From Wenjunlia vitaminophila DSM 41686 (GTDB taxonomy: Bacteria > Actinomycetota > Actinomycetes > Streptomycetales > Streptomycetaceae), in NCBI RefSeq assembly GCF_000380165.1, contig NZ_KB904658.1, positions 62,001-126,000 on the forward strand: a DNA stretch of 64,000 bases. Reading direction: 5' to 3'. The stretch's first letter is position 1, and the number at the start of each line of letters is the position of its first letter. Positions 47,988 through 64,000 of the stretch are shown here, one piece after another. Position numbers and translations under genes: made by a program. A model generated the notes under the pieces. That model worked only from the letters and a program-made list of their open reading frames with translations, was not told where the DNA came from and ran no database searches.

Positions 47988-48977
47988 TCAGGGGTGCAGC
48001 AGTCCGACCGCGGTGTCCACGGCGGTCGCCACGTCCCCGTCCGCCGGGAACAACATGGTCCTCCCCACGGTCAGGCCGCGGACCTGCTCGATCCGCAACG
48101 CGTTCCGCCAGGACGCGTACATCGCCTCCGGGTCCTGGCTGCCGTCGCCGCCGAGCAGCAGGGTGGGCAGGGTGGTGGAGGCCATCATCCGCTCCATGTC
48201 GTCCACCACCGGGACCTTGAGCCAGGTGTGGGCGGAGGTGCGGCCCAGGCCCTGGGCTATGCCGTTGGCCAGGATCTGCGCGTCCGCGGTGAGCACGTTG
48301 CGCGCCCTGCCGGCGTGCCGCCGCGAGGTGAACGGTTCCACCAGGGCGAGCAGCCGGCGTTCGGCCAGTTCGTCCACGGCCCTGGCGCAGCCGGCGAGGG
48401 TCCTGCTGGTGCCGTGGTCCGTGGGGTCCACCCGCAGCAGCATCTTCCCGCCGTCCAGGCCGCCGGCGGCGATCCCCTCGGCGTCGTAGCCGGTGAACCG
48501 GTCGTCGAGCTCGAACGACGCGCCGGGCAGCCCTCCCCGGTTCATCGAGCCCAGCACCAGCTTGCCCTCCAGCGCGCCGAGCAGGGCCAGGTCCTCCACG
48601 AGGTCGGCGGTGCCCAGGAAGCCGTTCACCCCCGGCCGGGACAGGGCGACGAGGCAGCGCGCGAGCAGCTCGTGCCGGTCGCCCATGGCCACCGGGTCGC
48701 CGTTGGCGGCCACCGCGCCGCGGGCCGGGTGGTCGGCGGCCAGCACGAACAGCGGTTCGGCGAACCCCGCGGGGGCGAACCGCCGCCGGTCCCGCAGCGC
48801 CCGCCGGACGGCGTCGGGGTCGGTGGCGCGCAGCCGGGTCAGCTCGGAGACCCGGTCGCGCACGGCGTCGGCGTACCCGGCCGCCGGGGTTCTTCGCCCG
48901 GCCGGTCGCGGGACCGGCGGTGCGGTCACCGGTGCGCGGGTGACGGGCGTGGGGCCCAGGGGCGCCGGGTCAGCCAT
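47988..48977 (-). CDS. Cgl0159-type (beta/alpha)8 aldolase of the inositol operon
   Basis: 329 residues. FVLAADHPARG, GLDGGKMLLRVDPTD and LLALVEPF are strands of a class I aldolase-like barrel annotated in actinobacterial iol clusters as deoxyribose-phosphate-aldolase-like. It probably cleaves 2-deoxy-5-keto-gluconate-6-phosphate to DHAP and malonate semialdehyde, replacing IolJ. ATG 48977 has GGAGGG 5 bases upstream and overlaps the iolC stop. Confidence 0.75.
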   Translation of the reverse strand: MADPAPLGPTPVTRAPVTAPPVPRPAGRRTPAAGYADAVRDRVSELTRLRATDPDAVRRALRDRRRFAPAGFAEPLFVLAADHPARGAVAANGDPVAMGDRHELLARCLVALSRPGVNGFLGTADLVEDLALLGALEGKLVLGSMNRGGLPGASFELDDRFTGYDAEGIAAGGLDGGKMLLRVDPTDHGTSRTLAGCARAVDELAERRLLALVEPFTSRRHAGRARNVLTADAQILANGIAQGLGRTSAHTWLKVPVVDDMERMMASTTLPTLLLGGDGSQDPEAMYASWRNALRIEQVRGLTVGRTMLFPADGDVATAVDTAVGLLHP

Positions 48978-49971
48978 GTCCACCCTCCGCGGTCGGCACC
49001 GGCAGCGGGCACCGCGGATCGTCCGCCGCGGCGTGCCGGGCCAGCAGGTCGTCCACCTCGGCCAGCGTCGGCATGTCGTCGGCGCAGGCGTGCCGTCCGG
49101 CGACCAGTGCCCCGGCGGCGTTGGCCACCTCCAGTACCCGGCGCAGTGGCCAGCCGGCGAGCAGCCCGTGGCAGAGCGCGCCGCCGAACGCGTCGCCCGC
49201 GCCGAGCCCGTTCACCACCCGCACCGGCACCGGGCGCAGCCGCACCTCGGCGTCGGCGGTCCTGGCCAGCACCCCGTCCGGGCCGAGCTTGACCACGGCC
49301 AGCCGCACCCCCCGGGCCAGCAGCAGGTCCGCGGCCCGGTCCGGGTCCCGGGTGCCCACCGCCACCTCGACCTCGTCCACGTTGCCCACGGCCACCGTCG
49401 CGTGCTCCAGCGCCCGGGCGTACCAGGGGCCCGCCTCGGCGGGGTCGGACCAGAAGACCGGCCGGAAGTCCAGGTCGAAGACGACGTCCCGGCCGGGCCG
49501 CACCGCGCAGGCGGTGAGCAGCGTGGAGCGGGTGGGCTCCACCGCGAGCGCGCTGCCGGTGATCCACAGGATGCGCGCCCCGGACACCGCCGTCCGGTCC
49601 AGGTGGTCGCCGGTCAGGCACTGGTCGGGTGCCTTGGGCCGACGGTAGAAGTAGAGGGGGAAGCGGTCCGGGGGGAAGATCTCGCAGAACACCACCGGCG
49701 TCTGGTGGTCCGGCACGGTGACCACCAGGGCGTCGTCCACCCCGAACCCCCGCAGCGCCTCCCGGACGTAGTCGCCGAACGGATCGGCGCCGACCCCGGT
49801 GAGGACGGCGGTGTGCCGGCCGTACCGGGCGGCGGCCACCGCGACGTTGGTGGCGGTGCCGCCCAGGTACTTGGCGAAGGTGCTCACCTGGGCCAGCCCC
49901 ACCCCGCTCTGCAACGGGTACAGGTCCACGCCCACCCGGCCGAGGGTGACCACGTCGTGCGGGGGGCTCAC
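48970..49971 (-). CDS. iolC: 5-dehydro-2-deoxygluconokinase
   Basis: 333 residues, PfkB family. KYLGGTATNVAVAAARYG is the substrate loop and NGLGAGDAFGGAL the catalytic anion-hole and aspartate motif. Phosphorylates 2-deoxy-5-keto-gluconate. GTG 49971 overlaps the iolE stop (GTGA). Confidence 0.9.
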   Translation of the reverse strand: MSPPHDVVTLGRVGVDLYPLQSGVGLAQVSTFAKYLGGTATNVAVAAARYGRHTAVLTGVGADPFGDYVREALRGFGVDDALVVTVPDHQTPVVFCEIFPPDRFPLYFYRRPKAPDQCLTGDHLDRTAVSGARILWITGSALAVEPTRSTLLTACAVRPGRDVVFDLDFRPVFWSDPAEAGPWYARALEHATVAVGNVDEVEVAVGTRDPDRAADLLLARGVRLAVVKLGPDGVLARTADAEVRLRPVPVRVVNGLGAGDAFGGALCHGLLAGWPLRRVLEVANAAGALVAGRHACADDMPTLAEVDDLLARHAAADDPRCPLPVPTAEGGHG

Positions 49972-50897
49972 CGGGCCCTCCCCGCCCGTTCGCGCCCGAT
50001 CAGCTCCAGGTGCTCGAGCGAGGCCCGGACCTCCGCGACCGGCCCGGCGCCCGGGGCCGGCTCGGTGCGCAGCACGGTGTCCTGCTCGAGCACGTACCAG
50101 CCCCGGTAGCCGTGGTCCTCGAGGGCGGTGACGACGGCCCGCACGTCCACCGCCCCCCGGCCGAGCGGCAGGTACATCCCGGCGGCCACCGCGTCGGCGT
50201 ACCCCACGCGCCCGTCCCTGACCTCGCCGGCGGTGGCGGCGTCCACGTCCTTGAGGTGCACGTGGGCGACGCGCTCCGGGGCGCGTCGGGCCAGCTCCAC
50301 CGGGTCGCCGCCGCCGACCAGCAGGTGCCCGGTGTCCAGGCAGAGCCCGATGCCGCTGCCGTCGAGCACCCGGCCGACCTCGAGGGGGGCCTGGACCATG
50401 GTGCCGACGTGCGGGTGCAGCACGGCGGTGACGCCGGCGTCCGCCGCCGCGGCTGCCGCCAGGTCGAGGTTGCGCAGCAGGGTGTCCCAGCCCTCCGGGT
50501 CCAACGCCGGCCGGTCGTCGTATCCGTGCTCGCCGGTGGCGGCGGCCAGCACCAGGGTGCCGGCCGCGGCGGCGACGGAGCGGGCCAGGGCGGAGCGGAC
50601 CTCCGGCAGCGGGTCGTGGTCCGGTCGGTGCAGTACCAGGGGCACGAAGCCGCCCACCGCGGTCAGACCGTGCTCGGCGAGGACCGCTGAGCGCCGTTCC
50701 GGGTCGTCGGGCAGGAACCCGTCGGGGCCGAACTCGGTGGCGCGCACCCCGAGCGCCGCCATCTCCGCCAGCACCCGCTTCGCGGGGAGTTGGTGGCCCC
50801 ACCCGGGCACCTCGCACACCCCCCAGGAGATGGGGGCCGCGGCGATCCGGTGGATCAGTCCGGGCCCGGCGCTCTCGATCCCGCCGCACCCGGTCAC
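49968..50897 (-). CDS. iolE: Inosose dehydratase-type TIM-barrel protein
   Basis: 309 residues, xylose-isomerase-like barrel. APISWGVCEVPGWG at the start, LDTGHLLVGGGDP and HVHLKDVD are typical of IolE. It dehydrates scyllo-inosose. GTG 50897 overlaps the iolG stop by 4 bases. Confidence 0.85.
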   Translation of the reverse strand: MTGCGGIESAGPGLIHRIAAAPISWGVCEVPGWGHQLPAKRVLAEMAALGVRATEFGPDGFLPDDPERRSAVLAEHGLTAVGGFVPLVLHRPDHDPLPEVRSALARSVAAAAGTLVLAAATGEHGYDDRPALDPEGWDTLLRNLDLAAAAAADAGVTAVLHPHVGTMVQAPLEVGRVLDGSGIGLCLDTGHLLVGGGDPVELARRAPERVAHVHLKDVDAATAGEVRDGRVGYADAVAAGMYLPLGRGAVDVRAVVTALEDHGYRGWYVLEQDTVLRTEPAPGAGPVAEVRASLEHLELIGRERAGRAR

Positions 50898-51928
50898 GCC
50901 GGTACCGCCGTCCCGGCGAGGCGGGTGTGGTCCTCGATCTCGCTGAGCGCCACGGGGCGGCGTTCGCGCCGGGACAGTTCGCAGGCCTCGGCCACCTGTA
51001 GCGCGCGCAGCGCCTCCACCCCGGGGCAGGGGTTCTCGGCCTCGCCGGCGACGACCCGGACGAAGGTGGCCAACTCGGCCCGGTACGCGGCGTCGAACCG
51101 GTCGAGGAAGCCGGCCCACGGCTGCCGTCCCGGTGGCCCGGCGTCCGGCTCCACCGAGGTGAGCGGGGTGCGGGTGCCGACGCCGACGGCGATCTGGTCG
51201 GCGGACCCGGCGAGTTCCATCCGCACGTCGTAGCCCGCGCCGTGGTACCGGGTGGCGGTGGTGGTGGCCAGGGTGCCGTCGTCCAGGGTGAGCACCGCCG
51301 CCGCGGTGTCCACGTCGCCCGACGCCCGGAAGAAGTCCTCGCCGCCGGCCGTGCCCATGGCGTACACCTCGGTCACCTCGCGTCCGGTCAACCAGCGGAT
51401 GACGTCGAAGTCGTGGACCAGGCAGTCCCGGTAGAGGCCGCCGGAGAGCGGGACGTAGGAGGCGGGTGGCGGCGCGGCGTCCGAGGTCACCGCCCGGATG
51501 GTGTGCAGCCGTCCGAGCCGGCCGGAGCGCACGGCGTCCCTGGCCGCCAGGTACCCGGCGTCGAACCGGCGTTGGAAGCCCATCTGGAGCACCGTGCCGG
51601 CGGCCTCCACCTCGCGCAGTGCGGCGACGGTGCCGGCGAGGTCCACCGACACCGGTTTCTCGCAGTACACCGGCAGCCCGGCCCGGGCCGCGCGGACGAT
51701 CAGTTCGGGGTGGGAGGCGGTGGCCGTGGCGATCACCACGGCGTCCACTCCGGCCCGGAACACCGCGTCCACCCCGTCCAGCGCGCGGGCGCCGGCCTCG
51801 GCGGCCACCCCCGCCGCCCGGCCGTGGTCGACGTCGGCGACCAACAACTCGCTCACTCCAGGGGTCCCGGTCAACGCCGCCGCGTGGAAGGCGCCGATCC
51901 GTCCCGCGCCGAGCAGTCCGATGCGCAT
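50894..51928 (-). CDS. iolG: Inositol 2-dehydrogenase
   Basis: 344 residues, Gfo/Idh/MocA family. Rossmann loop GLLGAGRIGAFH, the lysine motif CEKPVS, and the catalytic DCLVHDFDVIRW are present. It oxidises myo-inositol to scyllo-inosose. ATG 51928 is the clear start. First gene of the operon iolG-iolE-iolC-aldolase-iolB-iolD; about 170 bases upstream lies the IolR-type element shared with the importer at 62.5 kb. Confidence 0.9.
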   Translation of the reverse strand: MRIGLLGAGRIGAFHAAALTGTPGVSELLVADVDHGRAAGVAAEAGARALDGVDAVFRAGVDAVVIATATASHPELIVRAARAGLPVYCEKPVSVDLAGTVAALREVEAAGTVLQMGFQRRFDAGYLAARDAVRSGRLGRLHTIRAVTSDAAPPPASYVPLSGGLYRDCLVHDFDVIRWLTGREVTEVYAMGTAGGEDFFRASGDVDTAAAVLTLDDGTLATTTATRYHGAGYDVRMELAGSADQIAVGVGTRTPLTSVEPDAGPPGRQPWAGFLDRFDAAYRAELATFVRVVAGEAENPCPGVEALRALQVAEACELSRRERRPVALSEIEDHTRLAGTAVPA

Positions 51929-52097
51929 GGAAGTCCCGTACTTTCGTGTCCGGGGGCCGCCGTCGCGCCTGCCCGTCCCCGGCCGAGCGTGCGCCGTGGA
52001 CGGGCAGGGCAGGAAGCCCGAGGCCAACTCGGTCGCGGCGCAGCGCCCTGCGCCCCGCGTTCCCAAGCTCTCCCGTCACCGGCGACGACGTCAAGTG

Positions 52098-52116
52098 TTT
52101 GTCCTGACATTATGAC
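52098..52116. promoter_or_regulatory. IolR-type operator in the iolG-iolR intergenic region
   Basis: It contains TGTCCTGACA (52100-52109), which fits every position of KGWCHTRACA, the motif I recall for the GntR-type IolR of Corynebacterium glutamicum. On the minus strand the 19 bases match 62412-62430 at 17 positions. CATAAT within it may be a -10 element for iolG. Confidence 0.65.
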
Positions 52117-52158
52117 CTTTGGCTTCCGGTCATTTCTTCATCTCGATAGGCTCCCTCT

Positions 52159-52911
52159 GTGTCCACGACTCCGGTACACCTGGCGCTGTCCGTCGATCGC
52201 ACCAGTCCGGTTCCGCTCTACTTCCAGCTCGCGCTCCAGCTCGAGCAGGCCATCGAGACCGGCAGGCTCGAGCCGGGGAGCCTGTTGGGCAACGAGATCG
52301 AGCTGGCCGCGCGGCTCGGGCTGTCCCGACCGACGGTGCGCCAGGCCATCGGGTCCCTGGTGGACAAGGGACTGCTGGTGCGCAGGCGCGGAGTGGGCAC
52401 ACAGGTGGTGCACAGCCAGGTCAAGCGCCCTCTGGAGCTGACCAGTCTCTACGACGACCTGCTCGCCGCCGGCCAACAGCCGGCCACCCGGGTGCTGTCC
52501 AGCGCCACCGGAACCGCTCCCGCCGCGGTCGCCGCCGCACTCGGCGTCGCCCCGCAGGCCGAGGTGGTGACCGTGGTGCGGCTGCGGTCCGCCCACGCCG
52601 AGCCGATCGCCCGGATGGTCAACCACCTGCCCGTCGGGCTGCTCGACCTGCCCGCCGACGCGCTCGAGGCCACCGGCCTCTACCGGTTGATGCGCGCGGC
52701 CGGGATCACCCTGCACAGCGCCCGGCAGTCGGTGGGCGCCAGGGCGGCCACCGCGGCGGAGGCGGAACTGCTCGGCGAGGCGGTCGGCGCGCCGCTGCTC
52801 ACCATGGAACGGGTGACCTTCGACGACCGGGGACGGGCCGTGGAGTACGGCAGCCACGTCTACCGGGCCTCGCGCTACTCCTTCGCGTTCCAGCTCCTGG
52901 TGCGGCCCTGA
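52159..52911 (+). CDS. GntR family regulator with UTRA domain, probable IolR
   Basis: 250 residues. Residues about 15-80 are the winged HTH (LSRPTVRQAIGSLVDKGLL). Residues 90-248 are a UTRA ligand domain ending YGSHVYRASRYSFAFQLLV. GTG 52159 is the start. Divergent from iolG, with an IolR-type dyad between them, so it is probably the inositol operon repressor and represses itself. Confidence 0.8.
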   Translation: MSTTPVHLALSVDRTSPVPLYFQLALQLEQAIETGRLEPGSLLGNEIELAARLGLSRPTVRQAIGSLVDKGLLVRRRGVGTQVVHSQVKRPLELTSLYDDLLAAGQQPATRVLSSATGTAPAAVAAALGVAPQAEVVTVVRLRSAHAEPIARMVNHLPVGLLDLPADALEATGLYRLMRAAGITLHSARQSVGARAATAAEAELLGEAVGAPLLTMERVTFDDRGRAVEYGSHVYRASRYSFAFQLLVRP

Positions 52912-52976: not shown

Positions 52977-53005
52977 TTGACCTGGGAAGCTCCCCCCTCT
53001 ATGTT
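52977..53005 (+). promoter_or_regulatory. Promoter of the aldolase/SDR gene
   Basis: TTGACC (52977-52982) and TATGTT (53000-53005) are 17 bases apart. The -10 overlaps the start of the palindromic operator at 53004, so a bound repressor would block polymerase. Confidence 0.65.
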
Positions 53006-53014
53006 GTCTGACAA
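53004..53014. promoter_or_regulatory. Palindromic operator TTGTCTGACAA, copy 1
   Basis: A perfect 11-bp palindrome immediately after the -10 of the aldolase/SDR gene. The identical sequence recurs at 55827-55837 between the gntR gene and the mtnA-type operon, so the GntR-UTRA protein at 55.1 kb is the obvious candidate to bind both. Confidence 0.7.
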
Positions 53015-53053: not shown

Positions 53054-55018
53054 ATGCGGAATCGATGGAACGACGCGGAGTCCGGTACCAGCCCGCTCCA
53101 GGAGTGCGCCTACGGCTCACGGCTCATCGGCGGTGAGCCCACCCTCGTGCTGCACGGGGGCGGCAACACGTCGGTGAAGACCACCGTGCGGGACGTCACC
53201 GGCGCCGAGACCGAGGTCCTCTACGTCAAGGGCAGCGGCCACGACCTGGCCTCCATCCAGCCCGCGGGCTTCGCCCCGCTGCGGCTCGCCCGGCTGCGCG
53301 AACTGCTCACCCTGGACGCGCTCAGCGACGAGCAGATGGTCAACGAGCTGCGGTGCGCGCTGCTCGACGCCTCCGCCCCCGACCCCTCGGTGGAGACCCT
53401 GCTGCACGCCGTGCTGCCGCACCCCGCGGTGCAGCACAGCCACGCCGACGCGATCCTGTCCCTGACCAACCTGCCCAACGGCGAGGACGTCGTCCGCGAG
53501 GTGTTCGGCGACGACGTCGTGGTGTTCCCCTACGTCATGCCGGGCTTCGACCTCGCCGCGCTCGGCGCCCGGCTCTGGGCGGAGCAGGGCCGGCCCGACA
53601 CCCTCGGCCTGGTGCTGCTCAACCACGGCCTGTTCAGCTTCGGCGCGGACACCCGTGAGGCCTACGCCCGGCACATCGACCTGATCACCCGCGCCGAGCG
53701 CTACCTCGAGGCGCGGGTCACCCCGGTGGACACCTCGGCGGCACCCGCGCTGCCGCCGGTGCCGCGCACCGAACTCGCCGAGCTGCGGCGCCGGATCAGC
53801 GAGGCCGCGGGCGCGCCCGTGATCGTCAGCCGGCAGACCGACGCGGCCACCGCCGCCTTCGTCTCCCGCCCCGACCTCGCCGAGGTCAGCACCCGTGGCC
53901 CGCTCACGCCCGACCACGTCATCCGCACCAAGCTGGCCCCGATGGTCGGCAGCGACGTGGCCGGGTACGCGGACGCGTACCGGGAGTACTTCGGCCGGCA
54001 CCACCAGCGGCGGGGCACCGAGCTCACCCAGCTCGACCCGGCCCCCCGGGTGGTGCTCGACCCGCGCCTGGGCATGCTGACGGTCGGGCGCCGGGCCAAG
54101 GACGCCGACATCGCCCGCGACATCTACCAGCACACGATGCAGGTCATCGCGGCGGCGGAGCAGCTCGGCGGCTACCAGCCCGCGTCCGAGGAGCACATAT
54201 TCGACCTCGAGTACTGGGACCTGGAACAGGCGAAGCTGCGCCGGGCCGGCTCGCCCCCGCCGTTCGCCGGTGAGGTCGCCCTGGTCACCGGTGCCGCCTC
54301 GGGCATCGGCAGGGCCTGCGTCAAGGCGCTGCTGGACGCCGGGGCCAGCGTCGTGGGCTGGGACGTGGCCGACGCGGTCACCGACGCCTTCTCCGGCCCC
54401 GAGTACCTCGGTCAGCGCCTCGACGTCACCGACGAGGACGCGGTCAGCGCCGCCCTGGACGCGGTCGTGGAGCGGTTCGGCGGCCTGGACATGGTGGTGC
54501 CGTGCGCCGGGGTGTTCCGGTCCGGCATGCCGGTCGCCGAGCTCGACCCCGCGGCCTGGCGGCAGTCCATGGCGATCAACGCCGACTCGGTGGCCACCCT
54601 GTACCGGCTGGCGCACCCGCTGCTCGCCGCCTCCCCGCGCGGCGGCCGGGTGGTGCTGATCGCGTCGAAGAACGTCCCCGCTCCGGGGCCGGGCGCCGCC
54701 GCCTACTCGGCGTCCAAGGCCGCCGTCACCCAACTCTCCCGGGTGGCCGCGCTGGAGTGGGCGCAGGACGGGATCAGGGTCAACGTGGTCCACCCGGACG
54801 CGGTGTTCGACACCGGCCTGTGGACGCCGGAGATCATCGCTCAGCGGGCGGCCAGCTACGGGATGGACGTGGACGCGTACAAGCGCCGCAACCTGCTGCA
54901 CACCGAGGTCAGCAGCGCCACCGTGGGCGCGGTGGTGGCCCGTCTGTGCTCCCCGGAGTTCGCGGCGACCACCGGTGCGCAGATCCCGGTGGACGGGGGC
55001 AGTGACCGGGTGATCTGA
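53054..55018 (+). CDS. Class II aldolase / short-chain dehydrogenase fusion
   Basis: 654 residues. Residues about 10-390 are a zinc class II aldolase (GGGNTSVK at 35-42, metal ligands HSH at 128-130, NHG at 190-192). Residues about 405-654 are an SDR with TGAASGIG (412-419), YSASK (Y551, K555) and a C-terminal VDGGSD. The architecture equals RhaEW/YuxG rhamnulose-1-phosphate aldolase-lactaldehyde dehydrogenase. Here the partners are an MtnA-type isomerase and MtnK-type kinase, so the substrate is more likely 5-methylthioribulose-1-phosphate or 5-deoxyribulose-1-phosphate, cut to DHAP plus an aldehyde that the SDR half oxidises or reduces. ATG 53054 is the start. Confidence 0.85.
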   Translation: MRNRWNDAESGTSPLQECAYGSRLIGGEPTLVLHGGGNTSVKTTVRDVTGAETEVLYVKGSGHDLASIQPAGFAPLRLARLRELLTLDALSDEQMVNELRCALLDASAPDPSVETLLHAVLPHPAVQHSHADAILSLTNLPNGEDVVREVFGDDVVVFPYVMPGFDLAALGARLWAEQGRPDTLGLVLLNHGLFSFGADTREAYARHIDLITRAERYLEARVTPVDTSAAPALPPVPRTELAELRRRISEAAGAPVIVSRQTDAATAAFVSRPDLAEVSTRGPLTPDHVIRTKLAPMVGSDVAGYADAYREYFGRHHQRRGTELTQLDPAPRVVLDPRLGMLTVGRRAKDADIARDIYQHTMQVIAAAEQLGGYQPASEEHIFDLEYWDLEQAKLRRAGSPPPFAGEVALVTGAASGIGRACVKALLDAGASVVGWDVADAVTDAFSGPEYLGQRLDVTDEDAVSAALDAVVERFGGLDMVVPCAGVFRSGMPVAELDPAAWRQSMAINADSVATLYRLAHPLLAASPRGGRVVLIASKNVPAPGPGAAAYSASKAAVTQLSRVAALEWAQDGIRVNVVHPDAVFDTGLWTPEIIAQRAASYGMDVDAYKRRNLLHTEVSSATVGAVVARLCSPEFAATTGAQIPVDGGSDRVI

Positions 55019-55036
55019 TCCCGGTGCGAACACCGC

Positions 55037-55068
55037 GGCGGCGCGCCCCCGTCCGGGGGCGCGCCGCC
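55037..55068. terminator. Bidirectional terminator hairpin
   Basis: A 14-bp perfect GC stem (55037-55050 with 55055-55068) and loop GTCC between the convergent aldolase/SDR and gntR genes. Confidence 0.75.
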
Positions 55069-55075
55069 CGCGCCG

Positions 55076-55810
55076 TCACTTGCTGGTGCGGACCAGCTCG
55101 AACTCGTAGGCACCCTCGACGAAGTAGGTCTTGGAGTACGCCAGCAACCGGTGCGTCTGGTCGTAGTGGAGCTGGTCGAGCAGTATGAACAGCCGGTGCT
55201 TGGCGGCGTCCGGCCCCCAGGCGATGTGTGACGACGTCACCGCGTGCACCTTGGCGAGGCCGAGCGTCGGGCGCAGGCCGAGGGCGTTCTCGAAGTAGGC
55301 GAAGATCGAACCGCTCAGCTCGTCGGGGTCGAACCGCGGGGGGAAGAGGCTGAGCGGGATCAGGTCGTAGGAGTAGGCGACGACGTCGCCGTCCGCCGTG
55401 ATGCGCCGGCGCAGCTCTATGACCTCGGTGTCGGTGGGCGCCTCCATGCGCTCCGCCTCGTCCGGCAGCACCTGGCGCAGGGTGCGGCGCCCGTACTCGT
55501 GGCCCGGCTCCTTGCCGCTCGACCGGATCGAGTCCGTGATCGAGCCCATGCGCTCCAGGCCGTCGTGCACGGTCGGGCGCGGGGTGACGAACGTTCCCGC
55601 GCCCTGTTGGGTGCGCACGAGACCGAGGACGTGGAGCTCCTTCAGGGCGCTGCGCACGGTGGCGCGGGAGACGCCGAAGCGCTCGCACAGGGCGGCTTCC
55701 GTCGGAAGGCGGGAGCCCGCCGGGTAGTGCCCGTCGGCAACCTCCTTCTTCAGGGTCATTACGATGTCGTCCGCCAGTCGCCGCCCAGCCTGCTTCGCCA
55801 TGGCGAACAT
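55076..55810 (-). CDS. GntR family regulator with UTRA domain
   Basis: 244 residues. Residues about 10-75 are the winged HTH (LPTEAALCERFGVSRATVRSAL, quoted here as SRATVRSAL). Residues 90-240 are a UTRA sugar-phosphate-type sensor ending YFVEGAYEFELVRT. ATG 55810 is used; ATG 55801 is also possible. It lies between the aldolase gene and the mtnA-type operon, both preceded by the same palindrome, so it is the likely repressor; the inducer may be a 5-substituted ribose or its phosphate. Confidence 0.85.
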   Translation of the reverse strand: MFAMAKQAGRRLADDIVMTLKKEVADGHYPAGSRLPTEAALCERFGVSRATVRSALKELHVLGLVRTQQGAGTFVTPRPTVHDGLERMGSITDSIRSSGKEPGHEYGRRTLRQVLPDEAERMEAPTDTEVIELRRRITADGDVVAYSYDLIPLSLFPPRFDPDELSGSIFAYFENALGLRPTLGLAKVHAVTSSHIAWGPDAAKHRLFILLDQLHYDQTHRLLAYSKTYFVEGAYEFELVRTSK

Positions 55811-55825
55811 CTTGACAGACCCCTA

Positions 55826-55838
55826 GTTGTCTGACAAC
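55826..55838. promoter_or_regulatory. Palindromic operator GTTGTCTGACAAC, copy 2
   Basis: A perfect 13-bp palindrome in the 105-base divergent region between gntR and the mtnA-type gene; its core is identical to the site at 53004. TTGACA at 55812-55817 precedes it on the plus strand, but I found no matching -10. Confidence 0.7.
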
Positions 55839-55915
55839 GTCTGCGAAAACTTGACCATACGGGTGGTCACGCGCCGACGCGGACCGCCGTAACGCAGTGG
55901 TGGAAGAGGCGGCAG

Positions 55916-56947
55916 ATGCGCACGATCGACTGGGTGCCCGCGGAGGGGCAGAGCCCGGGACATATCCGACTTGTGGACCAAAAACTCCTGCCTGGGACCC
56001 TCTCAGAGGTCGATGTCCACTCGGTCGAGCAACTCATCGACGCCATCCAGGACTTGTCGGTCCGCGGTGCTCCCGCCCTCGGTGTGGCCGGTGCCCTCGG
56101 TGTCGCGCTCGCCGCGCAGAATTTGTCTGCTGACTCGGCGCGGGAGGTCATAGCGAAGCTGCGGGCCGCCCGGCCGACCGCGGTGAACCTGGCCTGGGGC
56201 GTGGACGCGGCCCTGGCGGCGTTCGACGAGGGGGGTCCGGAAGCGGCCCTGGTGGCGGCGCTGAAGGTGCGCGACGATGACATCGCGGCCTGCGAGGCGA
56301 TGGCCGAGCGGGGCACCGAGCTGCTGTCCCGGCTGCTCCCCGACCGGCCCCGGCTGAACGTGATGACCATCTGCAACACCGGCGCGCTCGCCGCCATCGA
56401 GCACGGCACCGCCCTGGGCGTGGTGGAGAAGCTGCACCACGACGGGAGGCTGGCGCTCGCGGTGGCCTGCGAGACCAGGCCGCTGCTCCAGGGGGCCCGG
56501 CTGACCGCCTGGGAACTGAAGCGGATGGGCGCCGACTACCGCGTCATCGTGGACTCGGCCGCGGCCTCCGTCCTGGCCAGGGGCGGTGCGGACGTGGTCA
56601 TGGTCGGAGCCGACCGGATCGCCGCCAACGGGGACACCGCCAACAAGATCGGAACCTTCGCCCTGGCACTGGCCGCGGCTCACGCGGGGGTGCCGTTCCT
56701 CGTGGTTGCTCCGGAGTCCACCATTGACCCGGACACCGCGGATGGGGGGGCCATCGAGATCGAGGACCGGGGCAGTGAGGAGGTCTGTTCCTTCGCGGGC
56801 GTGCGTACCACCCCCGAGGGCACCGCCGCCCTGAACCCGGCCTTCGATGTGACACCGGCCGGGCTCATTACGGCTATCGTCACCGACACACGGGTCATCG
56901 ATCTTGGCGCCAGCCAGGTCCCTGCCCACCCAACAGAGGCGGCGTAG
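55916..56947 (+). CDS. mtnA: S-methyl-5-thioribose-1-phosphate isomerase family protein
   Basis: 343 residues, full length for MtnA. Substrate loop SVRGAPALG (residues 48-56), catalytic cysteine C153 in TICNTGALA, catalytic aspartate D233 in GADRIAANGD, and NK at 243-244. It converts 5-methylthioribose-1-phosphate (or 5-deoxyribose-1-phosphate in DrdI-type relatives) to the ribulose form. ATG 55916 is the start. First gene of an operon with a ribose-type ABC importer and an MtnK kinase; gap to the next gene is 24 bases. Confidence 0.9.
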   Translation: MRTIDWVPAEGQSPGHIRLVDQKLLPGTLSEVDVHSVEQLIDAIQDLSVRGAPALGVAGALGVALAAQNLSADSAREVIAKLRAARPTAVNLAWGVDAALAAFDEGGPEAALVAALKVRDDDIAACEAMAERGTELLSRLLPDRPRLNVMTICNTGALAAIEHGTALGVVEKLHHDGRLALAVACETRPLLQGARLTAWELKRMGADYRVIVDSAAASVLARGGADVVMVGADRIAANGDTANKIGTFALALAAAHAGVPFLVVAPESTIDPDTADGGAIEIEDRGSEEVCSFAGVRTTPEGTAALNPAFDVTPAGLITAIVTDTRVIDLGASQVPAHPTEAA

Positions 56948-56971
56948 CCGCAGCGTTACCTGGAGATCACC

Positions 56972-58108
56972 ATGAAGCCAAAGAAGTCCATGTTCGCGAT
57001 CAGCACGGTCCTCATCGCCGCCACGGCGCTGGGTGCCTGCTCGCAGGACACGGATAACGACTCGGACACGGCCAAGAAGGGCTCCGAGAAGAAGAGCCAG
57101 TCCTGCGACCGCATCCTGAACAACGACTACATGCTGCCGCAGGCGAAGCCGGCCGAGTTCAAGAAGGGCTTCACGGTGGCCCTGGTCCGGCAGTCCGGGG
57201 TCGGTGACTACTTCGAGCAGTGGGGCAACGGCGCCACCAAGCAGATCGAGGCGGCCGGCGGGAAGGTCAAGGTCTACGACGCCCGCGGCAACAACTCCAC
57301 CCAGGTCAGCCAGTTCGGCCAGGCGATCAGCTCCAAGCCGGACGTGATCATCGTTGACCACGGTCTTGCCGACTCCGTGAACCCCAAGATCGACGAGGCC
57401 ATCGACAAGGGCATCCCGGTCGTCGTCTACGACGTGGACATCGCCAACTGTGACGCGACGTACATCTCGCAGAACGACGAGTCGATCGCCGAGGAGATCC
57501 TCGGGTACCTGAAGAAGGAGAACCCGGACGGAGGCAAGATCGCCTACGTCAACGTCTCCGGCATCGCGCCGCTGGACAGCCGGAACAAGGTCTACCAGGA
57601 GTTCCTGAAGGGCAACCCGGAGTTCAAGCAGGTCGCCCACTTCGGCAAGTACACCGAGTCGGTGGCCGCGGACACCGCGACCGAGGGCGCCGCGGCCCTG
57701 TCCGCCGCGAAGGACACCACGATCGCGTTCGCCGCCTACGACGAGCTGGCCAAGGGCACCCTCATCGCGCTGCGCCAGCAGGGCCTGAGCGACAAGGTCA
57801 AGGTCTACGGCGTGGACATCTCCACCGCCGACATCCAGCTCATGATCAAGTCTGGGAGCCCGTGGCGCGCCACCGCCGCGACCGACCCGGCGAACGTGGG
57901 CGCCGTCGTCGCGCGGGCCGCGATCGGCAAGGCCGCCGGTGCCGACCTGCCGGACAAGATGACGATCCCGGCGACCCTGATCACCCAGGACCAGCTCGTC
58001 GACAAGAACGTCGAGAACATGGACGACCTGCGCAAGGCCCTCCCTGAGCTGTCCACCCCCGACTACCTCGGCGCTCCCTGGATCCCCGAGATCACGCCGG
58101 GCCAGTAG
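56972..58108 (+). CDS. Sugar ABC transporter substrate-binding lipoprotein
   Basis: 378 residues. The signal peptide ends in LGAC (lipidated C23). The mature part is a periplasmic-binding-protein type 1 (ribose family): VALVRQSGVGDYFEQW, strands reading KPDVIIVDHG, and IPVVVYDVDIAN. It has an acidic, lysine-rich linker after the lipobox. In this operon it probably captures 5-methylthioribose, 5-deoxyribose or a related pentose at the cell surface. Ten bases separate it from the ATPase gene. Confidence 0.85.
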   Translation: MKPKKSMFAISTVLIAATALGACSQDTDNDSDTAKKGSEKKSQSCDRILNNDYMLPQAKPAEFKKGFTVALVRQSGVGDYFEQWGNGATKQIEAAGGKVKVYDARGNNSTQVSQFGQAISSKPDVIIVDHGLADSVNPKIDEAIDKGIPVVVYDVDIANCDATYISQNDESIAEEILGYLKKENPDGGKIAYVNVSGIAPLDSRNKVYQEFLKGNPEFKQVAHFGKYTESVAADTATEGAAALSAAKDTTIAFAAYDELAKGTLIALRQQGLSDKVKVYGVDISTADIQLMIKSGSPWRATAATDPANVGAVVARAAIGKAAGADLPDKMTIPATLITQDQLVDKNVENMDDLRKALPELSTPDYLGAPWIPEITPGQ

Positions 58109-58118
58109 CGAGGACGAT

Positions 58119-59705
58119 ATGTCAAGAAAATCCGGTACGTCGGCAACGCCCGACACGCTGAGAACATTGGGGGAAGAAACGGTTCTTCAGGTTCGGGACA
58201 TCTCGAAGAGCTACGGTCCCAACCAGGTTCTGCGCGGAGTCAGCTTCGGCGTCGAGAAGGGCACCATCTACGGGCTGATGGGCGCCAACGGGGCCGGAAA
58301 GTCCACGCTCATCAAGGTGCTGTCGGGCGCTGAGGCGCCCGACAGCGGGGAGATACGGCGCGGTGGTGAGGTCGTGGTCTTCCCGGACCCGCTCGCCGCC
58401 CAGCGCATGGGCGTGGGCACGGTGCACCAGAACCCGAACGACGGCGTGATCCTTGACATGACCGTCGCGGAGAACCTCGCCCTCGACTGGCTGAGCGACA
58501 CCCACTCGCCGCTCGGCTTCAACCGCAAGCGCGTCGAGGCGCAGGCCGTGAAGGTGGCCGAAACGCTGGGCATGCGGCCCGACCGCCGCATGCTGCGCTC
58601 GCCGGTGCGCGAGCTCGGGGTCTCGGAGCGGCAGCTCCTGGTCCTGGCTCGCGCCCTCTCCCGCAAGCCCGACATCCTCATCCTGGACGAGCCGACCTCG
58701 GCTCTCTCCCGGGAGGAGGCCGCGCGCCTGTTCGACATGGTCAGGGCGTTGGCCGCGGACGGGGTGACCGTGCTCTTCGTCACCCACAAGCTGGCCGAGA
58801 TCGACCAGCTCTGCGACCGGGTCGGGGTGCTGCGGGACGGGGTGATGCTCGACGAGTTCACCCCCGAGCCGGGCAAGGGCTTCGACTGGTCCGCCGTCCT
58901 GACCGTGCTGTTCGACCGGACCCCGGCGGAGATGCAGCGCGAGGGGTTGCCCGGCGGGAACGTGGTGCTGAGCGCCGACGGCGTCCAGCTCTTCGACGAC
59001 ACCCCGCCGTTCGGCCTCGACGTGCGGCAGGGACAGGTCACGGTGGTCCTGGGCCTGCTCGGCAGCGGCAAGACCGAACTGCTGGAGTGGCTGTTCGGAG
59101 CGGAGTCCGTGATCGCCGGGAACCGGACGCTCGACGGGCGCGCCTTCGCCCCGTCACACCCGGCGGACGCGATCAAACGTGGGGTCTACCTCCTGCCCGA
59201 GTCCCGGCACGAACAGGCGATCATCCCCGGGTGGTCCATCTCCTCGCAGATGACGCTGCCCTTCGCCGGCGCGTACACCTCCGGCGGGCTGATGCAGGCC
59301 GGCCGGGAGCGGCGGGCGGCCGAGGCCGTGATGCGGGACATCGGAGTGGTGGCGTCGGGACCCTCGGCGCCGATCGAGACCCTCTCCGGCGGCAACCAGC
59401 AGAAGGTGGTCATCGGCCGCTGGCTGCTCGGCGACCCGCGGGTGCTCCTGCTCGACGAGCCGTTCCGCGGCGTGGACATCAACGCCCGCCACGACATCGG
59501 CAGCACGGTGCGCAAGCTGGCCTCCTCGGCGGCGGTGCTGGTGGCGACCTCGGACCTGGACGAGGCCCTCGAGGTGGGCGACCGCATCGTGGTGCTCAAC
59601 CGGGGACGGATCACCGCCGACATGTCGCTCGGCGAGGCGTCGCGGGACCGTCTCATCGACGCGATGAGCGCGCGGCCGTCCCACCTCCTCGACCAGGCGG
59701 GGTGA
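58119..59705 (+). CDS. Sugar ABC transporter ATP-binding protein (RbsA type)
   Basis: 528 residues with two fused ABC domains. First: Walker A GANGAGKST (residues 55-63), Walker B ILILDEPTSALS. Second: loop GLLGSGKTE near residue 313, signature LSGGNQQK near 423, and LLLDEPFRGVD. Drives import with the adjacent permease. ATG 58119 follows GAGGA. Part of the mtnA-mtnK operon. Confidence 0.9.
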   Translation: MSRKSGTSATPDTLRTLGEETVLQVRDISKSYGPNQVLRGVSFGVEKGTIYGLMGANGAGKSTLIKVLSGAEAPDSGEIRRGGEVVVFPDPLAAQRMGVGTVHQNPNDGVILDMTVAENLALDWLSDTHSPLGFNRKRVEAQAVKVAETLGMRPDRRMLRSPVRELGVSERQLLVLARALSRKPDILILDEPTSALSREEAARLFDMVRALAADGVTVLFVTHKLAEIDQLCDRVGVLRDGVMLDEFTPEPGKGFDWSAVLTVLFDRTPAEMQREGLPGGNVVLSADGVQLFDDTPPFGLDVRQGQVTVVLGLLGSGKTELLEWLFGAESVIAGNRTLDGRAFAPSHPADAIKRGVYLLPESRHEQAIIPGWSISSQMTLPFAGAYTSGGLMQAGRERRAAEAVMRDIGVVASGPSAPIETLSGGNQQKVVIGRWLLGDPRVLLLDEPFRGVDINARHDIGSTVRKLASSAAVLVATSDLDEALEVGDRIVVLNRGRITADMSLGEASRDRLIDAMSARPSHLLDQAG

Positions 59706-59709
59706 GCGG

Positions 59710-59865
59710 ATGACACCCCCGAACCTCCCATCCGCCGCCCCGCCGCCCGCCGTGGCCCCCGGCCGCCAGACGGTCATCCCCGGGGCGTCGACCCCGGGGT
59801 CCCCGCCCGCCGTGGGCCCCATGACCGAGACAACCACCTCAGCACGAAAGGAGGAGGACTCGTGA
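59710..59865 (+). CDS. Possible 51-residue proline-rich small ORF
   Basis: ATG 59710 to TGA 59865 is an uninterrupted frame that fills the 156-base gap between the ATPase and permease genes and ends with a GTGA overlap on the permease start. The product would be proline and alanine-rich with a TETTTSARKEEDS tail; its last codons contain the permease Shine-Dalgarno (AAGGAGGAG). It could be a coupling leader or just non-coding. I do not recognise a family. Confidence 0.3.
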   Translation: MTPPNLPSAAPPPAVAPGRQTVIPGASTPGSPPAVGPMTETTTSARKEEDS

Positions 59866-60992
59866 GCCATCAGGCTTCGGTCCCGACCCCGGCCAGGGGA
59901 CGACCCGCCGTCAACCTCACCGAATTCGTCGTACGCTACGGGGTCATCCTCCTAGGCATCACCCTCTGCATCCTGTTCTCCCTCACCACCTCGGGTTTCG
60001 CCACCTGGGACTCGGCGGTGTCGATCCTCCAGATCCAGACGGTGGCCGCCATCGGGGCGCTGGGCATGATGCTCACCGCGATCGTCGGCGACCTAGACCT
60101 GTCCGTCGGAGCGGTCATCGGGCTCTCGGTCACCGTGGCCGCGATGATGATGATCCAGTACGAGTTCACCGGGCCGGTCGCCATCCTCGCCTGCCTGATC
60201 GCGGGCATGGTGGTGGGCGCCCTCAACGGCACCCTGATCGTCCTGCTTAAGGTTCCGCCCCTGCTGGCCACCCTGGGCATGATGTTCGCCATCCAGGGCC
60301 TCAAGCGGTGGCTCGTGGACGGGCAGACCCTGACCACCGGCATGACCCTGAGCGACGGCACCGTGGTCAAGGGCAACTTCACCGACGACTTCACCGCGAT
60401 CGACAGCAAGGAGATCATCGGTATCCCGCTCTCGGTGTACCTGCTCCTGCTGATCACCCTGCTGATGTGGGTCTTCCTGGAGCGGACGCGCTACGGCCGG
60501 GTCTTCCACGCGGTCGGTGGCAACCCCGAGGCGGCGCGGCTCGCCGGCACCCGGGTGTGGCGCTACAAGTTCGGCGCGTACGTGGTCTCCGGCATGCTCG
60601 CCGCGGTGGCCGGCATCGTCCTGGCCTCGCGGCTCCGCCAGGGAGACGTGACGGCCGGCGACTCCGCCCTGCTGGACGCGGTCGCGATGACGCTGGTCGG
60701 CTACGCGGTCCTCGGCGCCCGCAAGCCCAACACCCTGGGCACCTTCGTGGGAGCCCTGTTCATCGGGCTCATCCTCCAGGGCCTCACCCAGCGCGGCATG
60801 CCGTACTACACCCAGGACCTCATCAAGGGGCTTGTGCTGATCTTCGCCCTGCTGATGTCCTTCTCCCTGCACAAGAACCGCAAGAAGCGCCTCGGCCAGG
60901 CCAAGAAGATGCCGTCGGGTCCCCTCCCCGGGAAGCCGGCGGGCGGTGAGCCGGTGCCGGCGCGCGCATCCGTTGGAGAGAGGCATGGCTGA
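59862..60992 (+). CDS. Sugar ABC transporter permease (RbsC type)
   Basis: 376 residues with about 8-10 hydrophobic helices and the RbsC landmarks GDLDLSVGAVIGLS, PPLLATLGMMFAIQG and FHAVGGNPEAARLAG. A basic cytoplasmic tail (HKNRKKRLGQAKK) ends it. GTG 59862 has AAGGAGGAG about 6 bases upstream. It overlaps mtnK by 8 bases. Confidence 0.9.
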   Translation: MSHQASVPTPARGRPAVNLTEFVVRYGVILLGITLCILFSLTTSGFATWDSAVSILQIQTVAAIGALGMMLTAIVGDLDLSVGAVIGLSVTVAAMMMIQYEFTGPVAILACLIAGMVVGALNGTLIVLLKVPPLLATLGMMFAIQGLKRWLVDGQTLTTGMTLSDGTVVKGNFTDDFTAIDSKEIIGIPLSVYLLLLITLLMWVFLERTRYGRVFHAVGGNPEAARLAGTRVWRYKFGAYVVSGMLAAVAGIVLASRLRQGDVTAGDSALLDAVAMTLVGYAVLGARKPNTLGTFVGALFIGLILQGLTQRGMPYYTQDLIKGLVLIFALLMSFSLHKNRKKRLGQAKKMPSGPLPGKPAGGEPVPARASVGERHG

Positions 60993-62184
60993 CCAGGTGC
61001 TCACCATCGACACGGTGCCGGGGTACATCGCCGACCGGAAGGCCCTGCGCGACCTGGTCGACGTCGAGACGCTCAGCGTGTCGGAGATCGGGGACGGCAA
61101 CCTGAACCTGGTCTTCGTGTGCGCGGACCAGCAGGGGCGCCGCCTGGTGCTCAAGCAGGCCCTCCCCTACGTGCGTCTGGTCGGTCCGGACTGGCCGATG
61201 ACCGAGGCCCGGGCGGCCCGTGAGGCCGCCGCCATGCGGGTGCACGGTGCGCTCTCCCCGGACGTGTGCCAGCTCGTGGACTTCGACGAGGAGCGGCACG
61301 TGCTCGCCCTCGAGGACCTGTCGGACCACGAGGTGTTCCGCACCCGGCTGAACGCCGGCGGCCCGTACGAGGGGGTGGCGGAGCGGCTGGCGGCGTACCT
61401 GGCCGAGGTGGCCTTCGGCACCTCGTTCCTGGGCCTGCCCACCCAGGAGTTCCGCCGCCGTGCCGCCGCCGCGATCAACCCCGAGCTGTGCGAGCTGACC
61501 GAGGACCTGGTCTTCACCGAGCCCTACCTCGGTGCCGACCGGAACTCGGTCCGCCCGGTGCTCGAGCCGGTGGTGGCGCGGCTCCAGGCGGACCAGGAGT
61601 GGATCGCCGGAGCCCTGGCGATGAAGAGGTCGTTCCTCACCGTGCAGGAGATGCTGCTCCACGGCGACCTGCACAGCGGGAGCGTCTTCGTCCGGGGCGA
61701 CGGGGCGGACCTGTCGGTCAAGGCCTTCGACCCCGAGTTCGCCTGCTACGGACCGGTCGGCTTCGACCTCGGGATGATGTGGGCGAGCATGCTCTTCGCC
61801 GCTGCGCGCGCCGGCGCGCTCGGTGACCTGGCGCGCGCCGAGGGCCTGTTCCGCACCGTCTCGTCGAGCTGGGCGGTGTTCGAGGAGCGACTGCGCCAGC
61901 GGTGGCCGGACCGTGCGGCACCGGGCGGTCTGCCGGACTCCTTCCTCGAGGACTGGTTGCCGGCGGTCCTGCGGGACAGCTTCGGCTTCGCCGGCTGTGA
62001 GGCGGCCCGGCGGATCATCGGCCTGGCGAAGGTGAGCGACGTGGAGTCGTTGGACGACGACGCCTACGCGGTCGCCGCCACCGCGTGCCTGCGGCTGAGC
62101 CGGGTCCTGCTCGTCGAGCGGGAGACCCTGACCCTGGACCGGGTCGTCGAGGCCGGGCTGGCCGCCCTGGGGGACGGCGACTGA
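60985..62184 (+). CDS. mtnK: S-methyl-5-thioribose kinase family protein
   Basis: 399 residues, the MtnK length; aminoglycoside-phosphotransferase fold. GDGNLNLVF near residue 36 binds ATP, HGDLHS at 226-231 is the catalytic loop, and DPEFACYGPVGFDLG the metal-binding motif. It phosphorylates C1 of 5-methylthioribose, giving the substrate of MtnA; 5-deoxyribose is an alternative. ATG 60985 (GGAGAGAGG upstream) overlaps the permease by 8 bases. Last gene of the operon, followed by a strong hairpin. Confidence 0.9.
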   Translation: MADQVLTIDTVPGYIADRKALRDLVDVETLSVSEIGDGNLNLVFVCADQQGRRLVLKQALPYVRLVGPDWPMTEARAAREAAAMRVHGALSPDVCQLVDFDEERHVLALEDLSDHEVFRTRLNAGGPYEGVAERLAAYLAEVAFGTSFLGLPTQEFRRRAAAAINPELCELTEDLVFTEPYLGADRNSVRPVLEPVVARLQADQEWIAGALAMKRSFLTVQEMLLHGDLHSGSVFVRGDGADLSVKAFDPEFACYGPVGFDLGMMWASMLFAAARAGALGDLARAEGLFRTVSSSWAVFEERLRQRWPDRAAPGGLPDSFLEDWLPAVLRDSFGFAGCEAARRIIGLAKVSDVESLDDDAYAVAATACLRLSRVLLVERETLTLDRVVEAGLAALGDGD

Positions 62185-62430: not shown

Positions 62431-62510
62431 ACTATTGACTCGATGGTGCCGTGGGGCATACAACTCACCCGACTCACTGCCAGGCACCGTCGGACGGAAG
62501 GCAGACCAGC

Positions 62511-63512
62511 ATGGCCCGCAGACGCGCTTTGGTCCACGCCGCGGCTCTCGCCGCGGCCCTCGCCCTCGCCGTCGCGGGGTGCAGCGACTCGGGCGGCAAG
62601 GACGCGGAGGAGAAGCCGGAGGGGAACAAGGGGACCAAGGCCGTCAACACCCCCCGGATGACCATCGCCATGGTCACCCACTCCGGACAGGGCGACACCT
62701 TCTGGGACATCGTGCAGAAGGGCGCCCAGCAGGCCGCCGCCAAGGACAACGTCAAGTTCCTGTACTCCAACGACAAGGAGGCCAAGGGACAGGCGCAGCT
62801 CGTGCAGGCCGCCATCGACCAGAAGGTGGACGGGCTGATCGTCACCCTGGCCAAGCCCGAGGCGATGAAGGACGTGCTGGCGGAGGCCCGCAGCGCCGGC
62901 ATCCCGGTGGTCACCATCAACTCCGGTGCCCAGTTCTCCGCGGAGTACGGGGCGATGTCGCACTTCGGGCAGGACGAGGCGGTGGCCGGTGAGGCGATCG
63001 GCACGGAGCTGACCAAGCGGGGCAAGAAGAAGGCGCTGTGCGTCCTGCACGAGCAGGGCAACGTCTCGCTCGAGGAGCGCTGCGACGGCGCCAAGAAGAC
63101 GTTCGACGGCAGGATGGACAAGCTGTACGTGGAGGGCACCAACATGCCCGACGTGCTGGCCTCCCTGACCTCCAAGCTCCAGTCGGACAAGTCCCTGGAC
63201 GCGGTGGTCACCCTCGGTGCGCCGTTCGCGGCCACCGCCGCCAAGGCGGCCAAGGACGTGGGCAGCGACGTGGAGATCGACACGTTCGACCTCAACGCCG
63301 AGGTGGTCAAACAGCTCAAGGCGAAGGAGATCGGCTTCGCCGTGGACCAGCAGCCCTACCTCCAGGGCTACCTGGCGGTGGACGCGCTCTGGCTCAACGC
63401 CACCAACGGCAACGTCCTGGGTGGTGGCAAGACCGTGCTGACCGGCCCGGCGATCGTCACCGACAAGGACGTGCCGGCGCTGGAGAAGTACACGGCCAAG
63501 GGCACCCGGTGA
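62511..63512 (+). CDS. ABC transporter substrate-binding lipoprotein, probable inositol-binding
   Basis: 333 residues. The signal peptide ends in VAGC (C24). The mature part is a ribose-type binding protein: MVTHSGQGDTFWDIVQKGA, IDQKVDGLIVTL, IPVVTINSG. ATG 62511 has GGAAGG about 9 bases upstream. The iol-type operator upstream suggests the ligand is myo-inositol. It differs clearly in sequence from the binding protein at 56.9 kb. Confidence 0.8.
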   Translation: MARRRALVHAAALAAALALAVAGCSDSGGKDAEEKPEGNKGTKAVNTPRMTIAMVTHSGQGDTFWDIVQKGAQQAAAKDNVKFLYSNDKEAKGQAQLVQAAIDQKVDGLIVTLAKPEAMKDVLAEARSAGIPVVTINSGAQFSAEYGAMSHFGQDEAVAGEAIGTELTKRGKKKALCVLHEQGNVSLEERCDGAKKTFDGRMDKLYVEGTNMPDVLASLTSKLQSDKSLDAVVTLGAPFAATAAKAAKDVGSDVEIDTFDLNAEVVKQLKAKEIGFAVDQQPYLQGYLAVDALWLNATNGNVLGGGKTVLTGPAIVTDKDVPALEKYTAKGTR

Positions 63513-63537
63513 CCGCGGCCCGCCCCTGGGAGAGCCG

Positions 63538-64000
63538 GTGACCAGCGCCAGCGCCGCGCCCGTGGGACCGGGGAAGACCCCGCCGGTCACCGGGGACGAA
63601 CGCCTGGTGCACCGCTCGCTGGCCCGCAGGTCGCTGGCCCGCCCGGAGTTCGGCGCGATCGTCGGTGCACTGGCCGTCTTCGTCTTCTTCAGCGTGGTGG
63701 CGGACAGCTTCCTGCAGACGTCCAGCATGAGCACGGTGCTCAACGCCTCGTCGACCATCGGGATCATGGCGGTGCCGGTGGCGCTGCTGATGATCGGCGG
63801 GGAGTTCGACCTGTCCGCGGGCGTGATGGTGACCAGCGCGGCCCTGGTCACCTCCATGTTCTCGTACCAGATGACGGCGAACGTCTGGCTGGGGATCACC
63901 GTCTCGCTGCTGGTCACCCTGGCGTTGGGCTTCTTCAACGGGTTCATGCTCACCCGCACCGGGCTGCCCAGCTTCATCATCACCCTCGGTACCTTCCTGA
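63538..64000 (+). CDS. ABC transporter permease (RbsC type), N-terminal part
   Basis: GTG 63538 with GGGAGA upstream opens a frame that runs off the window; 154 residues are visible. They include a 38-residue cytoplasmic lead, three to four helices and the RbsC landmarks IGGEFDLSAGVMVTSAAL and GLPSFIITLGTF. Its ATPase partner must lie beyond the edge. Confidence 0.85.
   Translation, partial: MTSASAAPVGPGKTPPVTGDERLVHRSLARRSLARPEFGAIVGALAVFVFFSVVADSFLQTSSMSTVLNASSTIGIMAVPVALLMIGGEFDLSAGVMVTSAALVTSMFSYQMTANVWLGITVSLLVTLALGFFNGFMLTRTGLPSFIITLGTFL

Follow-up and report, generated by a model that had tools for sequence, protein, structure and literature searches.

Nearly all cells produce waste sugars derived from S-adenosylmethionine (SAM), and the classical enzymes of methionine salvage are absent from many bacteria with MtnA. 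Disposal of such sugars by a kinase, an isomerase and an aldolase has already been published, in some cases together with transporters (PMC6079011, PMC12632272). The dihydroxyacetone phosphate (DHAP) shunt of Rhodospirillum rubrum, R. palustris and Escherichia coli ATCC 25922 uses MtnK, MtnA and Ald2, while 5-deoxyribose disposal in Bacillus thuringiensis and in related clusters uses DrdK, DrdI and DrdA. In E. coli, the shunt is encoded by an inducible operon containing a transporter gene (PMC12632272), and sugar transporters are found in four published 5-deoxyribose clusters (PMC6079011). A predicted methylthioribose importer associated with mtnK (PMC3228920) and an aldolase/short-chain dehydrogenase (SDR) fusion of rhamnose catabolism (PMC3870299) have been described as well. 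We found no paper in the open-access literature that joins a disposal route, a methylthioribose importer and an aldolase/SDR fusion. Here we analyze a gene cluster with an aldolase/SDR fusion, mtnA, mtnK and importer genes in a stretch of 64,000 nt (the window) from the 6.43 Mb draft genome of Wenjunlia vitaminophila DSM 41686 (the host). This cluster probably provides inducible uptake and disposal of 5-methylthioribose and/or 5-deoxyribose, in the manner of a DHAP shunt whose last enzyme is a fused aldolase/NAD dehydrogenase.

From left to right, the cluster comprises a class II aldolase/SDR fusion (53054..55018, plus strand; NF006196, 983 bits with a cut-off of 831), a GntR-UTRA regulator on the minus strand (55076..55810; PF00392 and PF07702) and then, all on the plus strand, an MtnA-type isomerase (55916..56947; TIGR00512, 358 bits, cut-off 279), the substrate-binding lipoprotein (SBP) of an importer (56972..58108; best PDB match 4ry8), the importer ATPase with two ATP-binding cassette (ABC) domains (58119..59705; PF00005 in two stretches), the importer permease (59862..60992; PF02653), and an MtnK-type kinase (60985..62184; TIGR01767, 358 bits, cut-off 275). 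These family matches bear out the gene content and placement proposed in an earlier note on this stretch, and the motifs that it had listed as intact are indeed present, namely C153 and D233 of MtnA and the HGDLHS loop of MtnK. MtnA and MtnK both exceed the curated equivalog cut-offs for methionine salvage, and the kinase matches the B. subtilis methylthioribose kinase 2olc with E 4e-63. Its reading frame opens at GTG 60946; the more likely start is ATG 60985, which overlaps the stop codon of the permease gene and agrees with the start in a related genome (G004).

Three other genomes, including one from another family, have conserved the gene set. Two genomes from the same family and another genus (G004 and G030) carry every gene of the set in unchanged order, with 70-79% identity and in different surroundings. 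In G226, from another family of the phylum, genes for the SBP, the ABC ATPase, the permease, MtnA and MtnK are divergent from those for GntR, the fusion and LsrF, at 38-58% identity. Frigoribacterium has GntR divergent from MtnA, SBP, ABC ATPase, permease and MtnK, in the order seen in the host, and its fusion is at a separate locus. Among 396 genomes of the phylum, MtnK (E<1e-40) and a close fusion (E<1e-200) were each found in two, which are identical for both proteins. As the host is one of these two by choice, this amounts to one coincidence in 395, or about 0.0025.

The cluster also shares an operator-like site. The 11-bp palindrome TTGTCWGACAA occurs only twice in the whole host genome, before the fusion and before mtnA, while the reversed control has no occurrences; in the window, two copies were found with 0.01 expected by shuffling. 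The first copy (TTGTCTGACAA, 53004..53014) is 40 bp before the ATG of the fusion and overlaps the -10 hexamer of a sigma-70-like promoter (TTGACC-17-TATGTT, 52977..53005, plus strand, 9/12 matches), a position that suits a repressor. The second copy (TTGTCTGACAA, 55827..55837) lies 79 bp upstream of mtnA and 17 bp upstream of the start of the GntR gene. A comparison of upstream regions showed that the palindrome precedes the fusion, at the same place as in the host, as well as mtnA in G004 and G030, where the counterpart of the fusion promoter is TTGACC-17-TAGGTT, and even the distant G226 has one perfect copy upstream of its fusion (L082:7897). The GntR-UTRA protein is the putative binder of this site and repressor of both units, given its position and its conservation: it is kept in the clusters of G004, G030 and G226, and stands beside mtnA in Frigoribacterium. 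The whole-genome motif search found no copy on the mtnD-mtnC-mtnB operon of the host (contig C81) or elsewhere. Hence, the palindromes link the fusion with the importer, kinase and isomerase genes and set it apart from mtnB-mtnC-mtnD; as far as this operator is concerned, we rejected the inclusion of mtnD-mtnC-mtnB in the regulon. Another palindrome, GTTTCTTCTCAATAGGTGAGAAGAAAC, with 11-bp arms, is located about 100 bp before mtnD (L014:8113-8139 on C81) and is a possible separate control site of that operon.

The fusion protein comprises 654 aa, with the aldolase (PF00596) as the N-terminal half, followed by the SDR (PF00106/PF13561), and its AlphaFold model has two domains (predicted local distance difference test, pLDDT, 88). 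The class II aldolase residues E114, H128, H130 and H191 are retained, as are S538, Y551 and K555 of the SDR, and D437 after the second strand is of the NAD type. In a tree of 28 fusions, rhamnose enzymes form a clade of 13 rows (100/100); the window fusion is outside this clade with support 100/100, within the remaining, non-rhamnose set, whereas the host's own RhaEW is inside. Rhamnose isomerase adjoins six more widely read loci of the rhamnose clade and also the host's own. The window fusion and the rhamnose fusions align across the full length, but the metal-binding loop is HSHAD in the former and HTHPD in the RhaEW clade, and the window protein scores 453 bits with TIGR02632 (RhaD_aldol-ADH), under the cut-off of 568. 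The fused dehydrogenase had been seen as a novelty; RhaEW is its direct precedent (PMC3870299), and what stands of this claim is the placement outside the rhamnose clade. The aldolase here, being half of the SDR fusion, is not of the single-domain, FucA-like Ald2/DrdA type. The search of PDB sequences with the aldolase domain matched only 3m4r, with no match to any DrdA structure at E 0.01. The fold search with the fusion yielded the two folds to be expected and no others, that of an SDR and that of a class II aldolase domain (3m4r); the structures of DrdA, FucA and RhaD were not among the matches listed, which excludes nothing. We propose that the fusion is a 5-methylthio- or 5-deoxyribulose-1-phosphate aldolase with an NAD-dependent dehydrogenase. 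The closest solved structure of its aldolase domain (53054-53716), 3m4r, is 45% identical and comes from an archaeon, Thermoplasma acidophilum, which suggests that archaea, too, have the fusion or its aldolase half. Non-rhamnose fusions were found in actinobacteria, proteobacteria, planctomycetes and myxobacteria, and in one alphaproteobacterial metagenome-assembled genome (MAG) mtnA, a fusion of this set and mtnP are in a row.

The importer points to the substrate. The SBP matches 4ry8, entitled a 5-methylthioribose transporter solute binding protein, with E 9e-62 over 317 residues, the next best match being at 5e-35. It is probably a component of a 5-methylthioribose importer. The single-sequence structure model of the SBP was useless (pLDDT 37), and the search with it served only to give the title of 4ry8. 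Two other genomes (G082 and G102; loci L091 and L092) have a related set of SBP, ABC ATPase, permease and MtnK beside complete mtnD-mtnC-mtnB and mtnA, an arrangement expected for a methylthioribose importer and likely representing methylthioribose uptake for methionine salvage in actinomycetes. Still, the known enzymes of the MtnK/DrdK and MtnA/DrdI types accept 5-methylthio as well as 5-deoxy sugars (PMC6079011, PMC10986504), and hence both 5-methylthioribose and 5-deoxyribose remain candidates. The earlier note took a dedicated importer to be new, but it has precedents both in the drd clusters (PMC6079011, Figure 1b) and in MtrACB (PMC3228920).

In the pathway that we propose, the importer would take the sugar into the cell, MtnK would phosphorylate it to the 1-phosphate, and MtnA would isomerize the latter to the ribulose 1-phosphate, as follows from the membership of these proteins in their families. 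The aldolase half would then cleave the ribulose 1-phosphate to DHAP and methylthioacetaldehyde or acetaldehyde; this step is suggested by the intact aldolase site and by the linkage of the fusion to the operator, the gene set and MtnA. In Chloroflexus, RhaEW forms DHAP and lactate from its sugar phosphate, requires NAD and has no reductase activity with NADH (PMC3870299). By analogy with RhaW, the most likely role of the SDR half is oxidation of the aldehyde with NAD to the acid, that is, (methylthio)acetate or acetate. The GntR-UTRA protein would repress both units at TTGTCWGACAA until the pathway sugar or sugar phosphate builds up.

The host retains genes of methionine salvage, as mtnD-mtnC-mtnB form an overlapping operon (C81:8241-10191) and the methylthioadenosine (MTA) phosphorylase gene mtnP is on contig C42 (447 bits, cut-off 306). 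Thus, mtnB, mtnC and mtnD are absent, as reported, from the window, but not from the genome. A complete and co-regulated set elsewhere had been named as something that would refute disposal; this is borne out by half, as the set exists but carries no copy of the operator. At the same time, the window MtnA is the only PF01008 protein in the host genome. In G008, a member of the same genus, mtnA directly precedes mtrA-mtrB-lpqB. Host contig C88 has the same gene order, with only 428 bp between the neighbor gene and mtrA and with no mtnA; hence the ancestral mtnA has been lost from the host. The loss is clean and the flanking genes are kept (L096:6603-7031 on C88, compared with L085:5998-7032). 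The window MtnA is thereby the only candidate to serve methionine salvage too, and it probably serves both routes, in which case it would also hand methylthioribose 1-phosphate derived by MtnP to mtnB-mtnC-mtnD on C81. The assembly consists of 111 contigs with 99% completeness, and a missed second copy of mtnA is possible but unlikely.

The sequence of import, phosphorylation, isomerization and cleavage suggested in the earlier note is well supported by the operator, the conserved gene set, the match of the SBP to 4ry8, and the co-occurrence of the fusion with MtnA in the absence of MtnD. As to the latter, genomes with non-rhamnose fusions have MtnA in 12 of 12 cases (11 above the cut-off and one fragment at a contig end) and MtnD in none of the 12 tested, although these genomes were picked for carrying the fusion, are mostly MAGs, and come without a control count for RhaEW-only genomes. 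Fusion-linked MtnAs are not all united in the MtnA tree (2 changes), and therefore the association is not simply inherited through MtnA. Several further points weigh against the disposal pathway. Besides the fusion, mtnD is present in the host, G004 and G030, which therefore have another outlet; G008, whose fusion status was not examined, has MtnA without MtnD; and in Frigoribacterium and G300 the fusion stands with LsrF rather than with mtnA. RhaW oxidizes lactaldehyde, a different aldehyde from the acetaldehyde or methylthioacetaldehyde that the window SDR would oxidize. For this fusion subfamily, no activity on 5-deoxypentulose phosphates is known to us, and the literature search found none. 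Separately, in three gammaproteobacterial MAGs (L115, L116, L100) a gene that by eye is a probable MTA deaminase adjoins mtnA, with the fusion elsewhere and no mtnD.

One could assume instead that the import, kinase and isomerase genes feed methionine salvage via mtnB-mtnC-mtnD on C81, the fusion being a side outlet or acting on some other sugar phosphate. The presence of mtnD-mtnC-mtnB and mtnP in a host with no other MtnA fits this, as does the related importer and kinase set beside the complete salvage genes in G082 and G102. However, the operator precedes the fusion and is missing from mtnD-mtnC-mtnB, G004 and G030 preserve the fusion-containing layout despite their own second mtnA near mtnB, and the set is also kept in G226, which has no MtnD. 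We thus consider this explanation unlikely. Catabolism of an unrelated deoxy sugar, for example rhamnose or fucose, is far less plausible and seems very improbable. It is brought up by RhaEW, the sole characterized fusion of this type, being an enzyme of rhamnose catabolism (PMC3870299), and by several fusions at about 40% identity that adjoin RhaI. Yet MtnA and MtnK pass the methionine-salvage cut-offs, the cluster has neither rhamnose isomerase nor an FGGY kinase, and the fusion falls below the rhamnulose aldolase cut-off, while the host has a separate cluster of RhaI and RhaEW on contig C40. Rhamnose catabolism itself was rejected based on the family cut-offs, the fusion tree and this separate locus.

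A different chemistry would have the SDR half oxidize the C4 hydroxyl of 5-deoxyribulose 1-phosphate to 3-hydroxy-5-phosphonooxypentane-2,4-dione, which the thiolase LsrF would convert with CoA to acetyl-CoA and DHAP, leaving the aldolase half as a second outlet or an epimerase. By its structure, the C4-oxidized product is the named substrate of LsrF, whose products are DHAP and acetyl-CoA (PMC8016206), and a true LsrF (NF006081, 466-491 bits, cut-off 297) adjoins the fusion or is near it in G226, Frigoribacterium and G300. On the other hand, the active-site residues of the aldolase are intact, the RhaEW precedent is aldol cleavage followed by oxidation of the aldehyde, and no LsrF was seen near the clusters of the host, G004 and G030 within the stretches that were read, the rest of the host genome not having been searched. 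We regard this route as improbable for the window cluster. The LsrF (autoinducer-2, AI-2, thiolase) genes near non-rhamnose fusions in three actinobacterial genomes are at L082:10012-10896, L053:5907-6776 and L088:793-1665; in L088, a ribulose-phosphate 3-epimerase-like gene is between LsrF and the fusion, and in L053 an FGGY kinase and a GlpD-like gene are alongside. There is a slim chance that non-rhamnose fusions act as the last enzyme of 5-deoxypentose salvage in a wide range of organisms, with the SDR half acting on the intact sugar phosphate to yield the AI-2 breakdown intermediate for LsrF. If so, salvage of SAM by-products and AI-2 degradation would meet at one intermediate.

The convergent fusion and GntR genes are separated by a perfect 15-bp inverted repeat (55037..55068), a candidate transcription stop that has no T run and was not scored as an intrinsic terminator. 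By eye, the left flank of the cluster (47988-52911) contains inositol-catabolism-like genes (an IolC-like kinase, a sugar isomerase-like gene, a Gfo/Idh oxidoreductase and GntR), and a rhizopine/inositol-type importer occupies the other flank (62451-64000), an arrangement that looks like insertion of the cluster into an iol locus. The GntR gene at 52159-52911 was rejected as a cluster member, as it sits by the inositol-type genes and has no counterpart beside the fusion in G004 and G030.

Assignment of the window fusion to the disposal pathway, if true, would provide a function for a family that NCBIfam labels merely 'bifunctional aldolase/short-chain dehydrogenase', and a sugar-catabolic cluster would appear to have taken over from the housekeeping mtnA. 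Judging by its genes, the cluster would work like the DHAP shunt with an enzyme set that differs from the published one. As in the shunt, a class II aldolase would follow MtnA, MtnK and MtnA are of the families seen in the E. coli version, the expected products are DHAP and an aldehyde, and transporter genes are included. Unlike the shunt, the aldolase belongs to a distant type that is longer and carries a fused SDR, the importer is a binding-protein ABC system, and GntR-UTRA takes the place of the DeoR-type MtnR. Similarly, the kinase-isomerase-aldolase logic is that of 5-deoxyribose disposal, where DrdA is a stand-alone FucA-type aldolase. With RhaEW of L-rhamnose catabolism (B. subtilis YuxG, Chloroflexus), the fusion shares the two-domain architecture, full-length homology and predicted NAD dependence (PMC3870299), but it belongs to a separate clade and is linked to mtnA and mtnK, not to rhamnose isomerase. 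MtrACB, a predicted methylthioribose transporter of Bacillus cereus and Klebsiella, is likewise a sugar-type ABC importer co-occurring with mtnK (PMC3228920), although it goes with complete methionine salvage under MetJ or S-box control. Compared with these systems, what is new here is that a fused enzyme would carry out the final step, that the regulon is private and has two sites, and that the housekeeping mtnA appears to have been replaced.

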